Positions 42,723-49,689 of a DNA stretch of 64,000 bases are shown here, in pieces. Each line of letters opens with the position of its first letter. Within the stretch, counting starts at the first letter, position 1. The stretch is from Candidatus Binatia bacterium (GTDB lineage: Bacteria > Desulfobacterota > Binatia > UBA12015): positions 186,001-250,000 of the forward strand of contig JAQWRY010000028.1 in NCBI GenBank assembly GCA_029243485.1, given 5' to 3'. The position numbers and the translations under genes are program-made. The notes beneath the pieces were generated by a model. It saw nothing but the letters and a program-made list of their open reading frames with translations, was not told where the DNA came from and did no database searches.

Positions 42723-44519
42723 TCATCGGGTGAGTGCGACGACCGCGATGTCGGCGTTGAGGTTGGGGTCGGTTTCGATCTCGCGGCCGGATTTCGAATC
42801 GACGTAAATGGCTTCCACGATGCGAATGTTCCTTCCCTCGCAGAGTTCCTGGAAGTCGAGGATCGAAGGGAAGCGTCGGTTCGGGGTGTCGTGCCAGTCG
42901 TACGCGTACAGGCCTTCTTCCTTGGGGAGCCGGCCTTGCTTCATGAACATGTCGCGCAGCGGCGCATGCGCGAAGTTTGGAAAGCTCACGATCGCGCGCC
43001 CGCCGATCCGAACGAGTTCGTCGAGGACACCGGCGACATCGACGATCGATTGTAGGGTCTGCGAGAGCAGGGCGACATCGAACCTCTGGTTCGGCACCGC
43101 CGCGATCCCCTGATCGACGTCGGCGTGGATGACGTCCAGGCCGCGGGCGATGCACTTGGCTACCTCGCGCTGATCACGTTCGACGCCGAGGAGCGAGGTG
43201 TGGCCCCGCTCGCGCAGGATGGATAGGAGTTCGCCGTCGCCGCAGCCGAGGTCCACGACGCTCGCCCCGCGGGGTAGGAGGCGCAGGATCATCTCGTAGT
43301 CGAGTCGGTCCGCGTAGAAGATGCTGGTCGGCTCCTCGACCCGCCGCTCATCCGGGCTGGACGTGGGCGTTACAGCTGCTGGCTCGCTTGCGAGGAACGA
43401 GGCCACCATGCGACCGCCCAACTCCATGGGCTGCGGGAGGAGGAACGAGTCGTGACCGGCGGGGCTGGTGATCTCGCAGCTGCTCACGGACTTGGATTGG
43501 CCGACCAGGGTGTCGCTTAGCTGCCGGGATGCAGAGGGAGGGTACAGCCAATCGCTGGAGAAGCTGAGGAACAGCCAGCGGCACGTCGACGGGGCCAGGC
43601 GTGCCTGCCTCGTCTCTTGTGTGTCGCCGAGGTCGAACAGGTCCATTGCGGTGGAGAGCGTGATGTAGCTGTTGGCGTCGAATCGTTCGACGAATCGATC
43701 GCCCTGGTGGGCGAGGTACGAGCCGACCGAGAAGGTGCTCTCGAATGCGCTGTCGACGGCGCGCGGCTGCAGGCGGGTGGGGTCGAACTTGGCCCGCATG
43801 GACTCGTCGGAGAGATACGTGATGTGTGCGAGCATCCGAGCGAGAGCGAGACCGGCTTCGGGTGCTTCGGAACCGTAGTACTGGCCCTCGGCGAAGTTTG
43901 CGTCCTGGCGGATTGCGTTTCGCCCTACGATGTCGAAGGCGATTCCCTGGCTGCTGAGGCGGGGGGCCGCGGCGATCACGATCGCGGACGCGACCCGGTC
44001 GGGGTGGCCGGCCGCCCAGGTGAGTGCCTGCAAGCCCCCGAGGGATCCGCCGACGACGCAGCGGAGCCGCTCGACTCCGAGGGAGTCGACGAGCTGGCGT
44101 TGGAGCTCGACCATGTCGGCTACGGTGATGACAGGGAAGTCGGCGCCGTACGGGCGGCCCGAGGCCGGGTCCACGAAGTTCGGGCCCGTGGTCCCTCGGC
44201 AACCGCCGAGGACATTCGCGCAGATCACGAAGTACCGCGACGTGTCGATCGGCTTCCCGGGCCCGACGAGGAGGTCCCACCAGCCGGGATCGTCGTCCGC
44301 ATGGTGACGCGCGACGTGGGAGTCGCCGCTCACGGCGTGGCAGATCAGGACCGCGTTGTCGGCCGTAGGATTGAGAGTGCCCCAGGTCTCGAAACACACG
44401 CTCGGCTCCGGTAGCCGAGCGCCGTTCTCGAGTTCGAGCGTATCGTTCGATGTCCACGTCTGCGCGTGGCGAAGCGGCTTCGCGTTGCGGAGATCGTCAG
44501 AGCTGGTGGACGGGTTCAA
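42723..44519 (-). CDS. metX: MetX-MetW fusion: homoserine O-acyltransferase plus methyltransferase-like domain
   Basis: A 598-residue fusion. Residues ~20-380 are MetX: CRGTTGPNF, the nucleophile Ser159 in VVGGSLGG, Asp323 in SSDWLYPPS and His356 in SPAGHDSF complete the triad. Residues ~398-598 are MetW: FYADRLDYEMI, SAM-like loop VVDLGCGDGELL, and the MetW-specific YDWHDTPNRRFPS. In most bacteria metX and metW are separate adjacent genes. MetX acylates homoserine and MetW stimulates it in species studied. Whether acetyl- or succinyl-CoA is used cannot be told from sequence by eye. TTG at 44519 is the only sensible start, 13 bases after the metY stop. Confidence 0.9.
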   Translation of the reverse strand: MNPSTSSDDLRNAKPLRHAQTWTSNDTLELENGARLPEPSVCFETWGTLNPTADNAVLICHAVSGDSHVARHHADDDPGWWDLLVGPGKPIDTSRYFVICANVLGGCRGTTGPNFVDPASGRPYGADFPVITVADMVELQRQLVDSLGVERLRCVVGGSLGGLQALTWAAGHPDRVASAIVIAAAPRLSSQGIAFDIVGRNAIRQDANFAEGQYYGSEAPEAGLALARMLAHITYLSDESMRAKFDPTRLQPRAVDSAFESTFSVGSYLAHQGDRFVERFDANSYITLSTAMDLFDLGDTQETRQARLAPSTCRWLFLSFSSDWLYPPSASRQLSDTLVGQSKSVSSCEITSPAGHDSFLLPQPMELGGRMVASFLASEPAAVTPTSSPDERRVEEPTSIFYADRLDYEMILRLLPRGASVVDLGCGDGELLSILRERGHTSLLGVERDQREVAKCIARGLDVIHADVDQGIAAVPNQRFDVALLSQTLQSIVDVAGVLDELVRIGGRAIVSFPNFAHAPLRDMFMKQGRLPKEEGLYAYDWHDTPNRRFPSILDFQELCEGRNIRIVEAIYVDSKSGREIETDPNLNADIAVVALTR

Positions 44520-44532
44520 GGTTGGTCGACCT

Positions 44533-45837
44533 TCAGCGGCTCGCGCGCAGTGCCTGATCCAGATCGGCGATGATGTCGGCGGCGTCCTCGATGCCGACGG
44601 ATACGCGTATGTACTCTGGTGTCACGCCGGTCGACGCTTGCTCGTCGGCGGCCAGCTGCGAGTGCGTGGTCGAGGCGGGATGGATGACCAGGGTCTTCGC
44701 GTCACCGATGTTCGCGAGATGACTCGCGAGCTTCACGTTCTCGATGAACTTTTTCCCGGCGTCCTGGCCGCCACGGATTCCGAAGCCGAGAAGCGCACCG
44801 GCACCGTCGGGCAGGTACCGCTTGGCCGCCGCTGCGTGGGGGTGGTCGGGGAGGCCGAGGTAGTTCACCCACTCGACGTCCTCGTGTTTCTCGAGGAACT
44901 GCGCAACGGCGAGCGCGTTCTCGCAGTGTCGCGGCATCCGTAGGTGTAGGGTCTCGAGGCCCTGGAGTGTGAGGAACGCGCCGAACGGGCTCATGCAGGC
45001 GCCGGTGTCGCGGAGCCAGTGCGTTCGCATGTGCATGATGTACGAGATGTTGCCCATCGGGCGAAGGGCCTCCTCGAAGACCGCTCCGTGGTACGACGGC
45101 GAGGGGCCGCAGACTTCCGGCCACTTCTCAGGGTGGTCGGCCCACGGGAAGTTCGCGCTGTCGATGACCATGCCGCCGATGTGGACGCCGTGGCCGCCGA
45201 TGAACTTCGTCGTCGAGTAGATGACGACGTCGACGCCGTGCTCGATCGGGCGGAGTAGGAGCGGCGTCATGACCGTGTTGTCACACAGAGTCGGGAGATT
45301 GTGCTGGTGCGCGATGTCCGTGATGGCCTTGAAGTCCGGGACGTCGTTCTTGGGATTGCCGACGCTCTCGAAATAGACGCAGCGCGTGTTCTCATCGACG
45401 AGGTCGGCGATCTGTTCGGGCTTGTCGGGGTCGAAGAAGCGGGCCTCGATGCCCAGGTTCTTGAACGTCTGGCAGAAGAGGGTCCAGGTGCCTCCGTAGA
45501 GGCTCGTGGAAGATATGAAGTTCTGTCCGGCATGGCAGATGGTGAGAATCGCAGCGGTGATCGCCGCTTGTCCCGACGAGAAGCTGAGTCCCGCCGCGCC
45601 TCCGTCCATGGCCGCGAGACGCTTTTCGAGCACGTCGTTCGTCGGGTTCATGAGGCGGCTGTAGATGTTCCCGAACTCGGTGAGGCCGAAGAGGTTCGCG
45701 GCGTGCTCCGTGTCGTTGAAGACGTAGGAGGTCGTCGCGTAGATGGGGACGGCGCGCGCGTTCGTCGTGGGGTCGGGCTCCTGCCCGGCGTGCACGGCCA
45801 TCGTTCCCATGCTGTGGGGCTTGATCTCTTCGCTCAT
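44533..45837 (-). CDS. metY: MetY, O-acetylhomoserine sulfhydrylase
   Basis: A 434-residue PLP enzyme of the Cys/Met metabolism family. It has IYATTSYVF, YSRLMNPTNDVLEKRLA, the substrate-site SFSSGQAAI, and the PLP lysine Lys211 in IYSTTKFIGGHG. The length and GGHG following the lysine favour the O-acetylhomoserine sulfhydrylase branch over cystathionine synthases. It converts O-acylhomoserine and sulfide to homocysteine. First gene of the metY-metXW unit, with GGGAGACGG before the ATG and a bulged leader hairpin upstream. Confidence 0.92.
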   Translation of the reverse strand: MSEEIKPHSMGTMAVHAGQEPDPTTNARAVPIYATTSYVFNDTEHAANLFGLTEFGNIYSRLMNPTNDVLEKRLAAMDGGAAGLSFSSGQAAITAAILTICHAGQNFISSTSLYGGTWTLFCQTFKNLGIEARFFDPDKPEQIADLVDENTRCVYFESVGNPKNDVPDFKAITDIAHQHNLPTLCDNTVMTPLLLRPIEHGVDVVIYSTTKFIGGHGVHIGGMVIDSANFPWADHPEKWPEVCGPSPSYHGAVFEEALRPMGNISYIMHMRTHWLRDTGACMSPFGAFLTLQGLETLHLRMPRHCENALAVAQFLEKHEDVEWVNYLGLPDHPHAAAAKRYLPDGAGALLGFGIRGGQDAGKKFIENVKLASHLANIGDAKTLVIHPASTTHSQLAADEQASTGVTPEYIRVSVGIEDAADIIADLDQALRASR

Positions 45838-45941: not shown

Positions 45942-46577
45942 CTACTCCGGTGCGAATGCGCCGCGCAGGAAGGCGCGCAGCTCGATCTTGCGGGCGCGCA
46001 TGGCGGCTGCCGCGGTCGGCTCGCCCCCGACGAGCTCGTGCCCGAACTCGTCCGGCGCGACCGCCGGGTAGAGGAGGAAGACGCCGAGCAGGTTCACCAG
46101 AGCCTGGCGGACGTGGACGCGCCGGATGATCCCGGCCCGGCGGGCCTTCTCGAGCCACCCGCCGATGATGCCGAAGATCTCGCGTTCGAGACTGGCGAGT
46201 CCCTCCGGCATGGTGCTCTCTTCCAGATCCGGGCTGACCAGGGAGCGCAACAATACGGGCCCGGTGTCCGGCGTGCGTGCGAAGTGGTCGGACAGGGCAT
46301 CCGCGACGTCGAGGAGGTGGTCGAGTTCGGGTGGTTCGTCGAGAGCGAGCGGCGCGACGACTTCGAGGATGCGCCCGAGCTCGCGGTGCAACATCATGTG
46401 CAGGAGCTCTTCCTTGCTCGCGAAGTGATGGAAGAGGGTGCTCTTGTGCAGGCCGACCTGGTCGGCGAGCATCTGCAGGCTCATGCCCGCGGGGCCGTGC
46501 CGGGCGAACAGCTGCGCGGCGGTTGCGAGGATCCGCTCGCGTGAGGCGTCGTCGCGGCGACGGGCGGGGAGGGCCAT
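45942..46577 (-). CDS. TetR-family transcriptional regulator of alkB
   Basis: A 211-residue TetR protein. The helix-turn-helix is ERILATAAQLFARHGPAGMS followed by MLADQVGLHKSTLFHHFASKEEL. The C-terminal ligand domain is helical. It starts 2 bases after the alkB stop (TGAGGATG), so it is cotranscribed with alkB. The two dyads in the alkB promoter are good candidate sites for it, which would make the operon autoregulated. Ligand unknown; alkanes or their oxidation products are plausible because of context. Confidence 0.85.
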   Translation of the reverse strand: MALPARRRDDASRERILATAAQLFARHGPAGMSLQMLADQVGLHKSTLFHHFASKEELLHMMLHRELGRILEVVAPLALDEPPELDHLLDVADALSDHFARTPDTGPVLLRSLVSPDLEESTMPEGLASLEREIFGIIGGWLEKARRAGIIRRVHVRQALVNLLGVFLLYPAVAPDEFGHELVGGEPTAAAAMRARKIELRAFLRGAFAPE

Positions 46578-46579
46578 CC

Positions 46580-47668
46580 TCAGCTCTCCGCGAAGGGGCC
46601 GAGACCCCGTTCGCGCAGTCGCGCCGTCATGATCTTCTGGAAGCGGTCGTTCCGGAACATGACGAGGTAGTCCATCGCGAAGTAGCCTGTCGGCAGCTTC
46701 GGGCTCTCGTCCCAATGGCGGAGTTGTTGGAACGGCCTCGACGCGTACGCATGGTGATCTGCGTGCCGTGAAAGTCCGACCAGCGCGAAGAGGGTGAAGC
46801 TGGACTCGGTGTCCCACGAGTCGCAGGGGCTCACCTTCCGGCCGCTCCGAACGAGGCCCCAGTGCTCGAAGTAGTTGACCTGCTCGAGGGCGCGGATGGC
46901 CTGAGCCGCCTGCGCGAGAAACAAGACGAAGGCTGCAGGCCCGAAGACCGCCCACATGCCGAAGGCCAGGGTCAACTCCGCGAGGAGTCCGTGAACGACG
47001 CGGCTCTGGAGCATTCTTAGGTCCCACCATTTCATGTCGGCGTCGCCGAGGCGGGTGGCTTCGAGTCGCCAGGCGCTGCGGAACTGGCCTGGGAGTGTGC
47101 GGCGCAGGAAGGGCCAGAATTTCTCGCCGAAGCGCGCGGTCGCCGGATCTTCGTTTGTCCCGACGCGAACGTGATGGCCGCGCAGGTGCTCGGTGTAGAA
47201 GTGGTCGTACATCACCGTACATAGGAGGAGTCGGCCGAGGAGGCGCATGCGCGCCTCGCGCCGGTGCGTGAGTTCGTGTGCGACGACGATGCCCGAGATG
47301 CCCGAGTTCCCGCCGACGAGCACAATGGCGACGATGGCATCGACCGACCACAGGGATTGGATCGTGAAGAGCCATCCGAGGAGCACGATGTTCAGCACCT
47401 GGACCGCGACGAGGGCGTAGAGGATCCCGTTGAACGGGCCAGTTGGGGCTTCTTCGGCTGGTTCGTGTCGGGCGGAACCGCTGTTGTGGTCGAGCCAGTC
47501 GACCAGCGGCAGCGGCAGCAGCCACAGGAGGGCAACCGGCCAGGAGTGCGGCCCGGTCGCGAGAAAGCTCAGCGTGAGCAGTGGGAACGCAAAGCACAAC
47601 AGGTGCTTCGTCCAGACCCGGACGGCGGCGCGTGGCCTGCGGGTGGCGGATAGCGTGGCTGTCGACAT
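46580..47668 (-). CDS. alkB: AlkB-type alkane 1-monooxygenase
   Basis: A 362-residue membrane di-iron hydroxylase. All histidine motifs are present: HELTH at 131-135, HLRGHH at 161-166, NYFEHW at 265-270 and RHADHH at 301-306. Six hydrophobic segments surround them. It adds one oxygen atom to the terminal carbon of alkanes, taking electrons from a rubredoxin. No rubredoxin gene or fused rubredoxin domain is found in this window, so the electron donor must be elsewhere. Start ATG at 47668 with GGGGGAG before it. First gene of the alkB-tetR operon, divergent from Fe-ADH. Confidence 0.92.
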   Translation of the reverse strand: MSTATLSATRRPRAAVRVWTKHLLCFAFPLLTLSFLATGPHSWPVALLWLLPLPLVDWLDHNSGSARHEPAEEAPTGPFNGILYALVAVQVLNIVLLGWLFTIQSLWSVDAIVAIVLVGGNSGISGIVVAHELTHRREARMRLLGRLLLCTVMYDHFYTEHLRGHHVRVGTNEDPATARFGEKFWPFLRRTLPGQFRSAWRLEATRLGDADMKWWDLRMLQSRVVHGLLAELTLAFGMWAVFGPAAFVLFLAQAAQAIRALEQVNYFEHWGLVRSGRKVSPCDSWDTESSFTLFALVGLSRHADHHAYASRPFQQLRHWDESPKLPTGYFAMDYLVMFRNDRFQKIMTARLRERGLGPFAES

Positions 47669-47676
47669 GATTCTCC

Positions 47677-47694
47677 CCCAACCGTTCGGTTGGG
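47677..47694. promoter_or_regulatory. Operator-like dyad O1 over the alkB start site
   Basis: CCCAACCGTTCGGTTGGG, an 18-bp inverted repeat with 8-bp arms and a 2-base centre. It starts 9 bases before the alkB ATG and would cover the predicted transcription start. Its centre (47685.5) is 22 bp from that of O2, two helical turns, so two dimers could sit on the same face of the DNA. Confidence 0.75.
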
Positions 47695-47722
47695 TATTAC
47701 CAACCAATCGGTTGGGAGGCAA
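47694..47722 (-). promoter_or_regulatory. Sigma70-like alkB promoter
   Basis: On the minus strand TTGCCT (47722-47717) and TAATAC (47699-47694) are separated by exactly 17 bases. The match to TTGACA is good and to TATAAT is moderate. Transcription would start near 47686, giving an ~18-base leader with the ribosome-binding site. Assignment rests on spacing and on the position of the two dyads. Confidence 0.5.
47700..47715. promoter_or_regulatory. Operator-like dyad O2 in the promoter spacer
   Basis: CCAACCAATCGGTTGG, a 16-bp inverted repeat with 6-bp arms that shares the CCAACC/GGTTGG half-sites with O1. It lies wholly inside the 17-base spacer between the putative -10 and -35 elements of alkB, the classic position for TetR-type repression. 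Confidence 0.75.
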
Positions 47723-47813: not shown

Positions 47814-49013
47814 ATGTTTGCTTTGAAGAAGGCCCTGCACGCGATCGTGATTGCGATCACGAAGGTCGGAGCGAAGCTGCTTCCCGACCGGGTTCCGATG
47901 ACCTTCATCGGAACGGACTCGACCAGCGAACTGTGCACGTCGCTGGCCCAGACGGCAAAGACCAAGGTCCTGATCGTCACCGACGCCGGCCTCGTGAAGG
48001 CGGGCATCGCGAAGCGCGTGACGGATGCGCTCGATTCGGCGGGAGTGGGCTGGTCGGTCTTCGACGGGGTCGAGCCGGATCCGACGTTCACGCAGGTTGA
48101 TGCAGGTCTCAGCCAGTTGGCCCGCGACAAATGTGACGCCGTGCTCGCGGTGGGCGGAGGCTCCTCGATGGACGCGGCAAAAATCATCGCGGCGAGCGCG
48201 ACAAACGGCAACGACGCGCACAAGCTCGAGGGCATGATGAAGGTGCGACGGCCGCCCCTGTCGCTCTCGGCGATTCCCACCACGGCGGGGACCGGTTCGG
48301 AGGTCACAGTGGCGGCCGTCGTCTCGGATAGCCAGACCCACGAGAAGAAGTTCTTCGTCGATCCGAAGCTGTTGCCGGAGATGACGGCGCTCGACCCCTC
48401 GCTCATGGCGGGCCTGCCCCCCGCGATCACCGCCGCGACCGGCATGGATGCGCTGACGCATGCGATCGAGTCCTTCATTTCCAAGACGAGCAACGCGCAG
48501 ACGGAGCGTTGGGCGACTGCGGCTGTTCGCCTGATCTTTACGAATTTGCCGACGGCGTACGCCAATGGAAGCGATCTCGACGCGCGGAAGGCGATGGCGA
48601 TCTCGTCGTACTACGCCGGGTTGGCCTTTACGCGCACGAGTGTCGGCTACGTGCACGCGATCGCGCACACGTTCGGCGCCTACTATCGGACGCCCCATGG
48701 AATGGCGAACGCGATCGCGCTGCCGCACGTTCTGGAGTTCTCGAAGAACGAGGCCCGGGAGCAGTTGGCGGCGCTGGGCGACCTGATCGGCGTCCCCGGC
48801 GGAAGCGAGGCGGAGAAGGCTGAAGGGTTCATTCGCGCGGTCCGTGAGCTGATGGCGCGAATCGGCATTCCGTACACGCTCGAGGCGCTGCGAACCGACG
48901 ACATTCCCGCAATCGCCAAGCAGGCGCTCGCGGAGGCGCACATGAACTATCCGGTGCCTCGCTACATGGGCCAGCCTGATTGCGAGAGGCTCCTGCGCGA
49001 CATCGTCGCCTGA
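47814..49013 (+). CDS. Iron-containing (group III) alcohol dehydrogenase
   Basis: A 399-residue Fe-ADH. NAD-binding region AVGGGSSMDAAKIIA, then AIPTTAGTGSEVT, the metal ligands in GMDALTHAIESF, HAIAHTFGAYY and TPHGMANAIALP. It oxidises primary alcohols to aldehydes and is the natural next step after AlkB, from which it is divergently transcribed across a ~145-bp shared region. GGAGGGA precedes the ATG at 47814. The two dyads near alkB may also affect it, but they are ~100 bp from its start. Confidence 0.88.
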   Translation: MFALKKALHAIVIAITKVGAKLLPDRVPMTFIGTDSTSELCTSLAQTAKTKVLIVTDAGLVKAGIAKRVTDALDSAGVGWSVFDGVEPDPTFTQVDAGLSQLARDKCDAVLAVGGGSSMDAAKIIAASATNGNDAHKLEGMMKVRRPPLSLSAIPTTAGTGSEVTVAAVVSDSQTHEKKFFVDPKLLPEMTALDPSLMAGLPPAITAATGMDALTHAIESFISKTSNAQTERWATAAVRLIFTNLPTAYANGSDLDARKAMAISSYYAGLAFTRTSVGYVHAIAHTFGAYYRTPHGMANAIALPHVLEFSKNEAREQLAALGDLIGVPGGSEAEKAEGFIRAVRELMARIGIPYTLEALRTDDIPAIAKQALAEAHMNYPVPRYMGQPDCERLLRDIVA

Positions 49014-49043: not shown

Positions 49044-49689
49044 CGCTACTCGGAATCGACCAAGCAAGATCTCAATCTCCCCGCCGAGCATCTGAGCGAG
49101 TTTCCCGTCGGGAAGTTCCTGCTGCAATACGGCATCGAGCAGCGAGAGTACCTTGACCGGCTTGAGGACCTTTACGCGGCGGACGATCCGGAGAAAAAGG
49201 GCCCCACTCTCGCCGCGATCTGGGATGGCGCCGGACACAACACGGAGGCGGTCCTGCAGACGCTGGCTGCAACGAAGGGGTCGTGGTTCGCACATCTTCG
49301 GGAGGTGACCCGGCTGCGGATCCCGTAGGGGAAGGGTGCGATCGTGTATCCCGTCATGCACAATCGCAGCTCGTGCCAGCGTGGCCTATATGTTCGACGA
49401 GTCGGCGCGGCTGGTTCCGGAGGGCGACACGTTGACTCTCGTCCAGGGCTACCTCGGCAGCTATCCGAACTTCGGGTTTGATATGCAGGCGGGCGATCTG
49501 GGGGAGTTCGGGAGGCGCCTCAAGACGGTAACCGAGGCAGCGGGGATCGAGGCTTTGGCCATCCGCCTCGGCGTGCGGCGGACGAGTCCGGAGTCCTGGA
49601 CCACGATGGATTGGATGGCCGAGGATTTCGTCCGCAGGCAGCCGGCCCAGGCGGGGCTGCTCGATCTGGGTCGGTACGAGAACTTCTGA
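49044..49689 (+). pseudogene. cti: Fatty-acid cis/trans isomerase (Cti), C-terminal remnant
   Basis: The frame from 49044 has no start codon and reads LPAEHLSEFPVGKFLLQYGI, DPEKKGPTLAAIWDG and HLREVTRLRIP. It stops at TAG 49326, continues GKGAIVYPVMHNRSS, and then shifts frame near 49365 into SVAYMFDESARLVPEGDTLT, LVQGYLGSYPNF, LGVRRTSPESW and the final LLDLGRYENF. The last part matches the C-terminus of Cti (GVRRTDPRFW-type motif), the periplasmic haem enzyme that makes trans fatty acids under solvent stress. The N-terminal two thirds with the haem motif are gone. Confidence 0.65.

Follow-up and report, generated by a model that had tools for sequence, protein, structure and literature searches.

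What are two inverted repeats with like half-sites doing in the promoter of an alkB-like gene, and which protein would bind them? In the window, the whole stretch of 64,000 nucleotides that was analysed, both dyads read CCAACC-N4-GGTTGG and their centres lie 22 bp apart. The putative start-site operator, O1 (CCCAACCGTTCGGTTGGG, 47677..47694, no strand assigned), covers the predicted alkB start and was called from its sequence, the conservation of its arms and its uniqueness in the genome. The putative spacer operator, O2 (CCAACCAATCGGTTGG, 47700..47715, no strand assigned), fills the space between the predicted -35 and -10 hexamers; it was called from its sequence and is conserved like O1, and a dyad at the same position is seen elsewhere, in the promoters of alkB or AurF-like genes from other genomes. 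Read on the minus strand, the predicted -35 hexamer TTGCCT (47722-47717) is followed by a 17-base spacer (47716-47700) and the predicted -10 hexamer TAATAC (47699-47694). Base 47694, the outermost of O1, is common to O1 and the -10 box. The initial annotation had placed two like dyads 22 bp apart in this promoter, one within the TTGCCT/TAATAC spacer and the other over the predicted start, with a TetR gene two bases after alkB. The sequence bears out each of these positions: the TGA of alkB is followed by two bases and then by the tetR ATG at 46577.

The hexamers are weak by consensus. TTGCCT/TAATAC matches TTGACA/TATAAT at 7 of 12 places, and a consensus scan found no sigma-70-like site. It is the register kept in relatives, not the consensus, that points to a promoter here. 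The 22-bp spacing and the TTG-17-TANNAC register are kept in the same-genus promoters, where the -10 hexamer aligns with TACAAC and TAAAAC. TTG stands in register in loci L004 and L005, and TTGAC(A/G/T) in L076, L083, L095 and L068.

The alkB-like gene (46580..47668, minus strand) encodes 362 aa in which FA_desaturase (Pfam) was the sole domain seen, with no fused second domain; no NCBIfam model matched at 0.001. Its nearest solved structures are the AlkB entries 8f6t and 8sbb, with which it aligns over approximately 300 residues (E 2.6e-51 and 7.7e-42). The irons of AlkB are held by nine histidine ligands in four motifs, as described in the accessible part of PMC10110569. All nine are present in the window protein (HELTH, EHLRGHH, NYFEHWG and RHADHH, aligned to 8f6t). 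The downstream gene (45942..46577, minus strand) encodes a TetR-family regulator of 211 aa from its ATG, with an N-terminal TetR_N helix-turn-helix (PF00440, E 3.6e-14) and the recognition helix VGLHKSTLFHHF. A single-sequence model of this protein (pLDDT 59.5) was set aside and a five-sequence model (mean pLDDT 83) was used, which consists of helices only and retrieved TetR folds at the top of the list. PfmR (3vpr) was first in the fold search at 1.2e-6, with RutR narrowly behind at 2.9e-6, while by sequence AmtR (5e57) was first and 3vpr second. With its TetR_N domain and the all-helical C-terminal domain of the model, the protein is a member of the TetR family, and a palindromic candidate operator lies in the predicted promoter of its own transcription unit.

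On the other side of the promoter, a divergent gene on the plus strand (47814..49013) encodes an iron-containing alcohol dehydrogenase, identified by domain and family matches, which might also come under the control of the operators. It lies next to the promoter in 3/3 same-genus genomes having the locus; the homologues that adjoin the dyads in the two relatives are those of L082 (E 1.6e-212) and L072 (E 3.8e-211). Other neighbours were also recorded. At 49336-49689 on the plus strand, a 117-aa frame matches the fatty acid cis/trans isomerase family at positions 590-692 of 692 only; since just the last part of the family is matched, the frame may be a truncated remnant. A 598-aa frame at 42723-44519 on the minus strand appears to be a fusion of an alpha/beta-hydrolase part, which we take to be MetX-like, with a MetW part, and an O-acetylhomoserine sulfhydrylase gene (44533-45837) adjoins it.

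How unusual is the dyad pair in its own genome? Exact CCAACC-N4-GGTTGG occurs at only two places in 6,548,273 bases, both of them here, and the reversed control does not occur at all. From base composition, 0.77 sites would be expected singly and 2.8e-6 as pairs separated by 0-30 bases. When up to two mismatches were permitted, the window contained 5 sites against 2.21 expected, a number reached in 10 of 100 shuffles, and the genome contained 216 sites against 232 for the reversed pattern; nothing beyond the O1/O2 pair stands out. A genome-wide regulon was thus not found, there being no further exact site and mismatch counts no higher than the reversed control. The suggestion that the consensus could be used to find other lipid genes was not sustained, as the genome search gave no other exact site. 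Nor did the six one-mismatch genome sites, among the matches listed, offer a convincing promoter target. All six lie in some open frame, which has little meaning in high-GC DNA, and two look clearly coding by eye, in frames presumed to be isoleucyl-tRNA-synthetase-like and zinc-ribbon-like. The site in L104 is a possible exception: it borders a 137-aa frame on the upstream side and could conceivably be a promoter site.

Within the genus, the TetR orthologue, alkB and the tandem dyads are all present in three of four genomes (G000, G010 and G011) and all absent from the fourth. In G010 and G011 the TetR orthologues are 81-82% and the alkB orthologues 79-80% identical to the window's; G010 has one further single dyad besides the tandem. 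G009 has no dyads and neither orthologue, and its single TetR match is a 36% cousin. Alignment of the three promoters revealed conservation of 24/24 arm columns, compared to 4/8 for the inner N4, 4/6 for the linker and 46/120 for the other columns.

Related regulators were then compared across the class, where a TetR match at 1e-20 was found in at least 24 of 148 genomes (the best 20 candidates per genome were scored). The 29 TetR loci compared comprise three orthologues including the window's own, two rows with GLHNS (L014 and L015) and 24 cousins, defined as the rows with G, S, A or R where the window TetR has His. The best upstream site of every cousin (24/24) is a CCGACC-N4-GGTCGG-like dyad that agrees with CCRACC-N4-GGTYGG in 11 or all 12 of its 12 places and, again in 24/24, is found 28-77 bp upstream of the TetR match. 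The same regions reversed gave 0/24, and 50 rounds of dinucleotide shuffling gave a mean of 0.22/24 and a maximum of 2. An AurF-like frame is present in all 24 cousin loci. L014 and L015, which were excluded from the 24-row counts and from the dyad and layout counts, show no dyad in the 300 bp preceding the TetR and no AurF-like frame at the locus. The exact sequence CCGACCGATCGGTCGG is present in 14 of 145 class genomes, a single copy in each, against 0 for the control, and the window's genome lacks it; 12 of these 14 sites adjoin a cousin TetR gene.

The promoter layout itself also recurs. TTGAC(A/C), a dyad as spacer, a -10 hexamer and a second dyad follow each other in L019, L023 and L024. 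At the thresholds used, a TTG-16/18-nAnnnn pair was detected in 24 of 32 promoters, and a spacer dyad together with a start-site dyad, each scoring at least 8 of 12, in 17 of the 32; the shuffle control above concerns the best single dyad per locus and not this layout count. Many cousin spacer dyads are imperfect (8-10 of 12), and the spacer dyad is absent (score 5-7) from L006, L007, L010, L012, L026, L028 and L030. L004 and L005 fell below the hexamer threshold despite their TTG in register.

More widely, a tandem scan of genome contigs (genome_contigs) returned 61 stretches with two exact dyads 0-30 bases apart, all of which were sorted by script; nine span at most 42 bases. One of the nine is from Kribbella and lies beside an unrelated TetR, and the other eight are located at an alkB-like gene (L072, L082 and L083) or an AurF-like gene (L053, L076, L095, L068 and L060, the last repeating the L068 sequence at a contig end). 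The records behind these eight include Deltaproteobacteria, Proteobacteria and Polyangiaceae. A phmmer check of the gene calls covered L053, L068, L083 and L095. The enzyme gene is followed by a TetR in L072, L083, L076 and L095; for L082 the TetR was seen in L004, taken as the same contig, and the other three stretches end before the point where a TetR could show. The TetRs of L083, L076 and L095 share 42-45% identity with the window TetR, and VGLHKS is common to all. The dyads of L083 are followed in turn by alkB, tetR and an AurF-like gene. "AurF-like" is used here as a loose name: the Pfam match is above the cut-off for L016 (E 2.8e-10) and below it for L076 (E 2e-4), and these two proteins are 27% identical over 191 columns. 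Across the phylum, the fixed-gap tandem was found in 1 of 395 genomes, the window's own, and the TetR profile at 1e-30 matched in at least 2 of 395 (best 7 candidates per genome scored).

The longer-gap stretches are of other kinds. Those from Sphingomonas, Saprospiraceae and others mostly have no TetR match nearby in the retrieved stretch, and those from Streptomyces and allies have another TetR type. Several tandem CCAACC-N4-GGTTGG pairs per genome were seen in the Sphingomonas and Saprospiraceae records (L042, L044, L047-L049, L041, L043, L045 and similar); with no TetR match in the retrieved stretch, these are perhaps a repeat family. The actinobacterial TetR frames, with the helix NKERIYQYF or similar, are at or near two such dyads in L046, L050, L058, L059, L064, L069, L070, L075, L077, L080, L085, L093 and L098-L100. 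Their centres are mostly 41-43 bp apart (38 in L064 and 23 in L100).

The first fold match, PfmR (TTHB023) of Thermus thermophilus HB8, is also the closest parallel for the operator among the systems compared. According to the portion of PMC7022988 available, CTGACCGATCGGTCAG is bound by PfmR at 2 nM, and two sites lie in the promoter of PfmR itself. Like the window system, it combines a TetR-family protein and a doubled site in its own promoter with a 16-bp palindrome in the same register with an ACC-N4-GGT core. The window and cousin dyads both fall in this operator class as far as that portion describes it. Unlike the window half-site, which has A at its third base, that of PfmR has G. Of the single changes at positions 2-8 reported in that portion, the one with the least effect was at the third base, where G to C gave 6.6 nM, so drift of the third base of the half-site is plausible; the changes given there did not include G to A at this base. 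The two proteins share 23% identity in the fold alignment, and PfmR is proposed for fatty-acid genes at several promoters (PMC7022988, same portion), in contrast to the single target seen for the window TetR. PfmR was rejected as an orthologue on this identity, its second place by sequence and the lack of further exact sites in the genome.

Collectively, the uniqueness of the dyads, their co-occurrence with the TetR gene, the cousin dyads and the PfmR fold match suggest, at a probability of roughly 85%, that alkB and tetR form a single-target, autoregulated operon with the window TetR acting on both predicted operators. We infer co-transcription, TetR binding, repression and same-face cooperation as follows. 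The alkB-like gene and tetR would be transcribed as one operon, and a TetR dimer would sit on each of O1 and O2, members of a PfmR-like operator class (nnRACC-N4-GGTYnn) whose half-sites here carry A, not G, as their third base. With about two helical turns between them, the two dimers would lie on much the same side of the helix. TetR bound in the spacer and over the start site would exclude RNA polymerase, and both genes would be repressed because of this block, until the repressor was released by a ligand, which is probably lipid-like and either a substrate or a product. As far as seen, the switch would have one target promoter. The initial annotation had read the dyads as operators of the TetR encoded downstream and the whole as a compact autoregulated unit. 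Comparison lends support to this proposal: dyads, alkB-like gene and TetR orthologue are present or absent together in 4/4 genus genomes, and cousin TetRs have matching dyads in 24/24 loci against 0/24 for the reversed control.

The description of the switch as alkane-sensing is a different matter. The narrower form of the autoregulated operon, compatible with it, would have the TetR sense n-alkanes or their alcohols and the operon form, with the alcohol dehydrogenase, an alkane-use module like the Rhodococcus alkB-rubA-alkU system. The AlkB-like enzyme with its nine aligned histidines and E of 2.6e-51 to 8f6t favours this, as do the alcohol dehydrogenase kept at the promoter in 3/3 genomes and the precedent of AlkU, a TetR repressor encoded by the last gene of an alkB operon (PMC6921075, in the part accessible). 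However, rubredoxin (PF00301) had no match at 0.001 in the window's genome, nor did any of the 14 genomes from the order (completeness 63-100%) yield one, while the same search found PF00301 in 7 of 14 named genomes as a control. The alkane as signal is weakened by this missing rubredoxin. In addition, the sites proposed for AlkU, GATTTacAAATC and ACAAATcTtcAtATTTGT in the accessible part of PMC6921075, are unlike O1 and O2, and the same TetR type guards an AurF-like diiron enzyme elsewhere. On balance we consider alkane sensing rather unlikely. AlkB-like genes at 1e-20 were found in 6 of the 14 order genomes, with rubredoxin in 0 of 14. AlkB fused to ferredoxin and reductase exists elsewhere (PMC8918992, from the part available). 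The simplest guess for the electron donor of the window enzyme is an unlinked ferredoxin.

Much less probable is that the dyads serve another TetR or other regulator encoded elsewhere, with the adjacent tetR acting on a different site. Dyads of the same letters are indeed tied to unrelated TetRs (NKERIYQYF or similar) in Streptomyces, Nonomuraea and Kribbella, but the agreement of TetR orthologue and tandem dyads in 4/4 genus genomes and the dyad of matching class just upstream of the cousin TetRs at 24/24 loci argue against it. That the dyads are RNA hairpins or a REP-like repeat is barely credible: CCAACC-N4-GGTTGG could fold and the Sphingomonas and Saprospiraceae tandem copies lack a TetR match in the retrieved stretch, but this genome has only two copies, the arms stay constant while the inner bases vary, and O2, which precedes the predicted start, would not be transcribed into the alkB RNA.

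If the window TetR reads CCAACC and its cousins CCGACC, what distinguishes them? The residue after GL in the recognition helix, H44 of the window TetR when numbered from its ATG, may read the third base of the half-site. As a tentative proposal, somewhat short of even odds, a VGLHKS subgroup (CCAACC) split from a VGL(G/S)KS subgroup (CCGACC) with this residue as the specificity switch; in G010 and G011, which hold both, the alkB-like and AurF-like switches would not cross-talk, and the operator-as-spacer promoter would be a module that is inherited and has moved between diiron enzymes with no relation to each other, with L083 as the link. In the tree, six His rows are separated from the 24 Gly/Ser/Ala/Arg rows by one change, with weak support (86/65) and long branches flagged. 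Because there is a single change, the association of His with CCAACC counts as one event and not as 30. L014 and L015 fall beside the His rows yet are dyad-less, and in most actinobacterial TetRs close to CCAACC dyads GL is followed by Asn. A strict link between His after GL and CCAACC is on these three grounds reduced to a lead.

Two-operator autoregulated TetR promoters are well known. One such, PA3973 of Pseudomonas aeruginosa, has two close palindromes around its -10 box, and it is unlike the window in its operator sequence, its acyl-CoA dehydrogenase and thioesterase genes and its 308 ChIP peaks (PMC9736018, as far as the available text goes). AlkU of Rhodococcus jostii RHA1 (alkB-rubA1-rubA2-rubB-alkU) is similar in that the TetR gene is last in an alkB operon; it binds the alkB promoter, where two inverted repeats have been proposed (PMC6921075, accessible part). 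Its operon differs in holding rubredoxins and a reductase and in its proposed operators, and the comparison made here is one of operon layout and operators. An AlkU-type operon with rubredoxin and reductase was rejected for the window, where alkB stands directly before tetR and PF00301 has no match in the genome. Smlt2053 (PMC10304680) was also dismissed as a relative, its site being PsrA-type and not close, and the part of the AlkX paper available (PMC9430723) yielded no operator passage. AlkB homologues of the same family (L036-L039, 51-56% identity) were rejected as carriers of this system, having another TetR or none: in L036-L038 a different TetR frame lies close to alkB, scoring E 2e-11 to 5e-8 against the window-TetR model, L037 and L038 have CATACG-N4-CGTATG dyads, and L039 has no TetR match. 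The alkB-like genes of L036-L038 (genus g3) stand at 55-56% identity, and alkB seems to have switched repressor within the family.

Also close are the TetR/AurF-like loci of the same class and those of L076, L095, L068 and L053, with a related TetR where visible, a start-site dyad and, in some, a spacer dyad. They differ in that the gene apparently under control is ferritin-like and AurF-related, and in that the 24 class cousins have CCGACC-like arms, not CCAACC. We know of no name in print for these loci. In a literature search covering subscription journals thinly, we found no account of CCAACC/GGTTGG or ACCGACCG dyads with a TetR, nor of AurF or a diiron oxygenase paired with a TetR. The components of the switch are of known kinds, combined in a well-conserved TetR switch that apparently has one target and would govern an AlkB-like gene. 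The novelty is modest and lies in a TetR subgroup in which a recognition-helix His, not Gly/Ser, goes with a half-site A, not G, and which may guard two kinds of diiron enzyme through a similar promoter design.

Together, these results provide, for an AlkB-like enzyme from a lineage without a rubredoxin match, a precise and testable pairing of operator and regulator. The compact two-operator promoter would be usable as a biosensor part, provided its inducer is found first. The Gly/Ser-CCGACC and His-CCAACC subgroups could serve as a natural experiment on how operator specificity shifts in a TetR while the promoter layout is kept.
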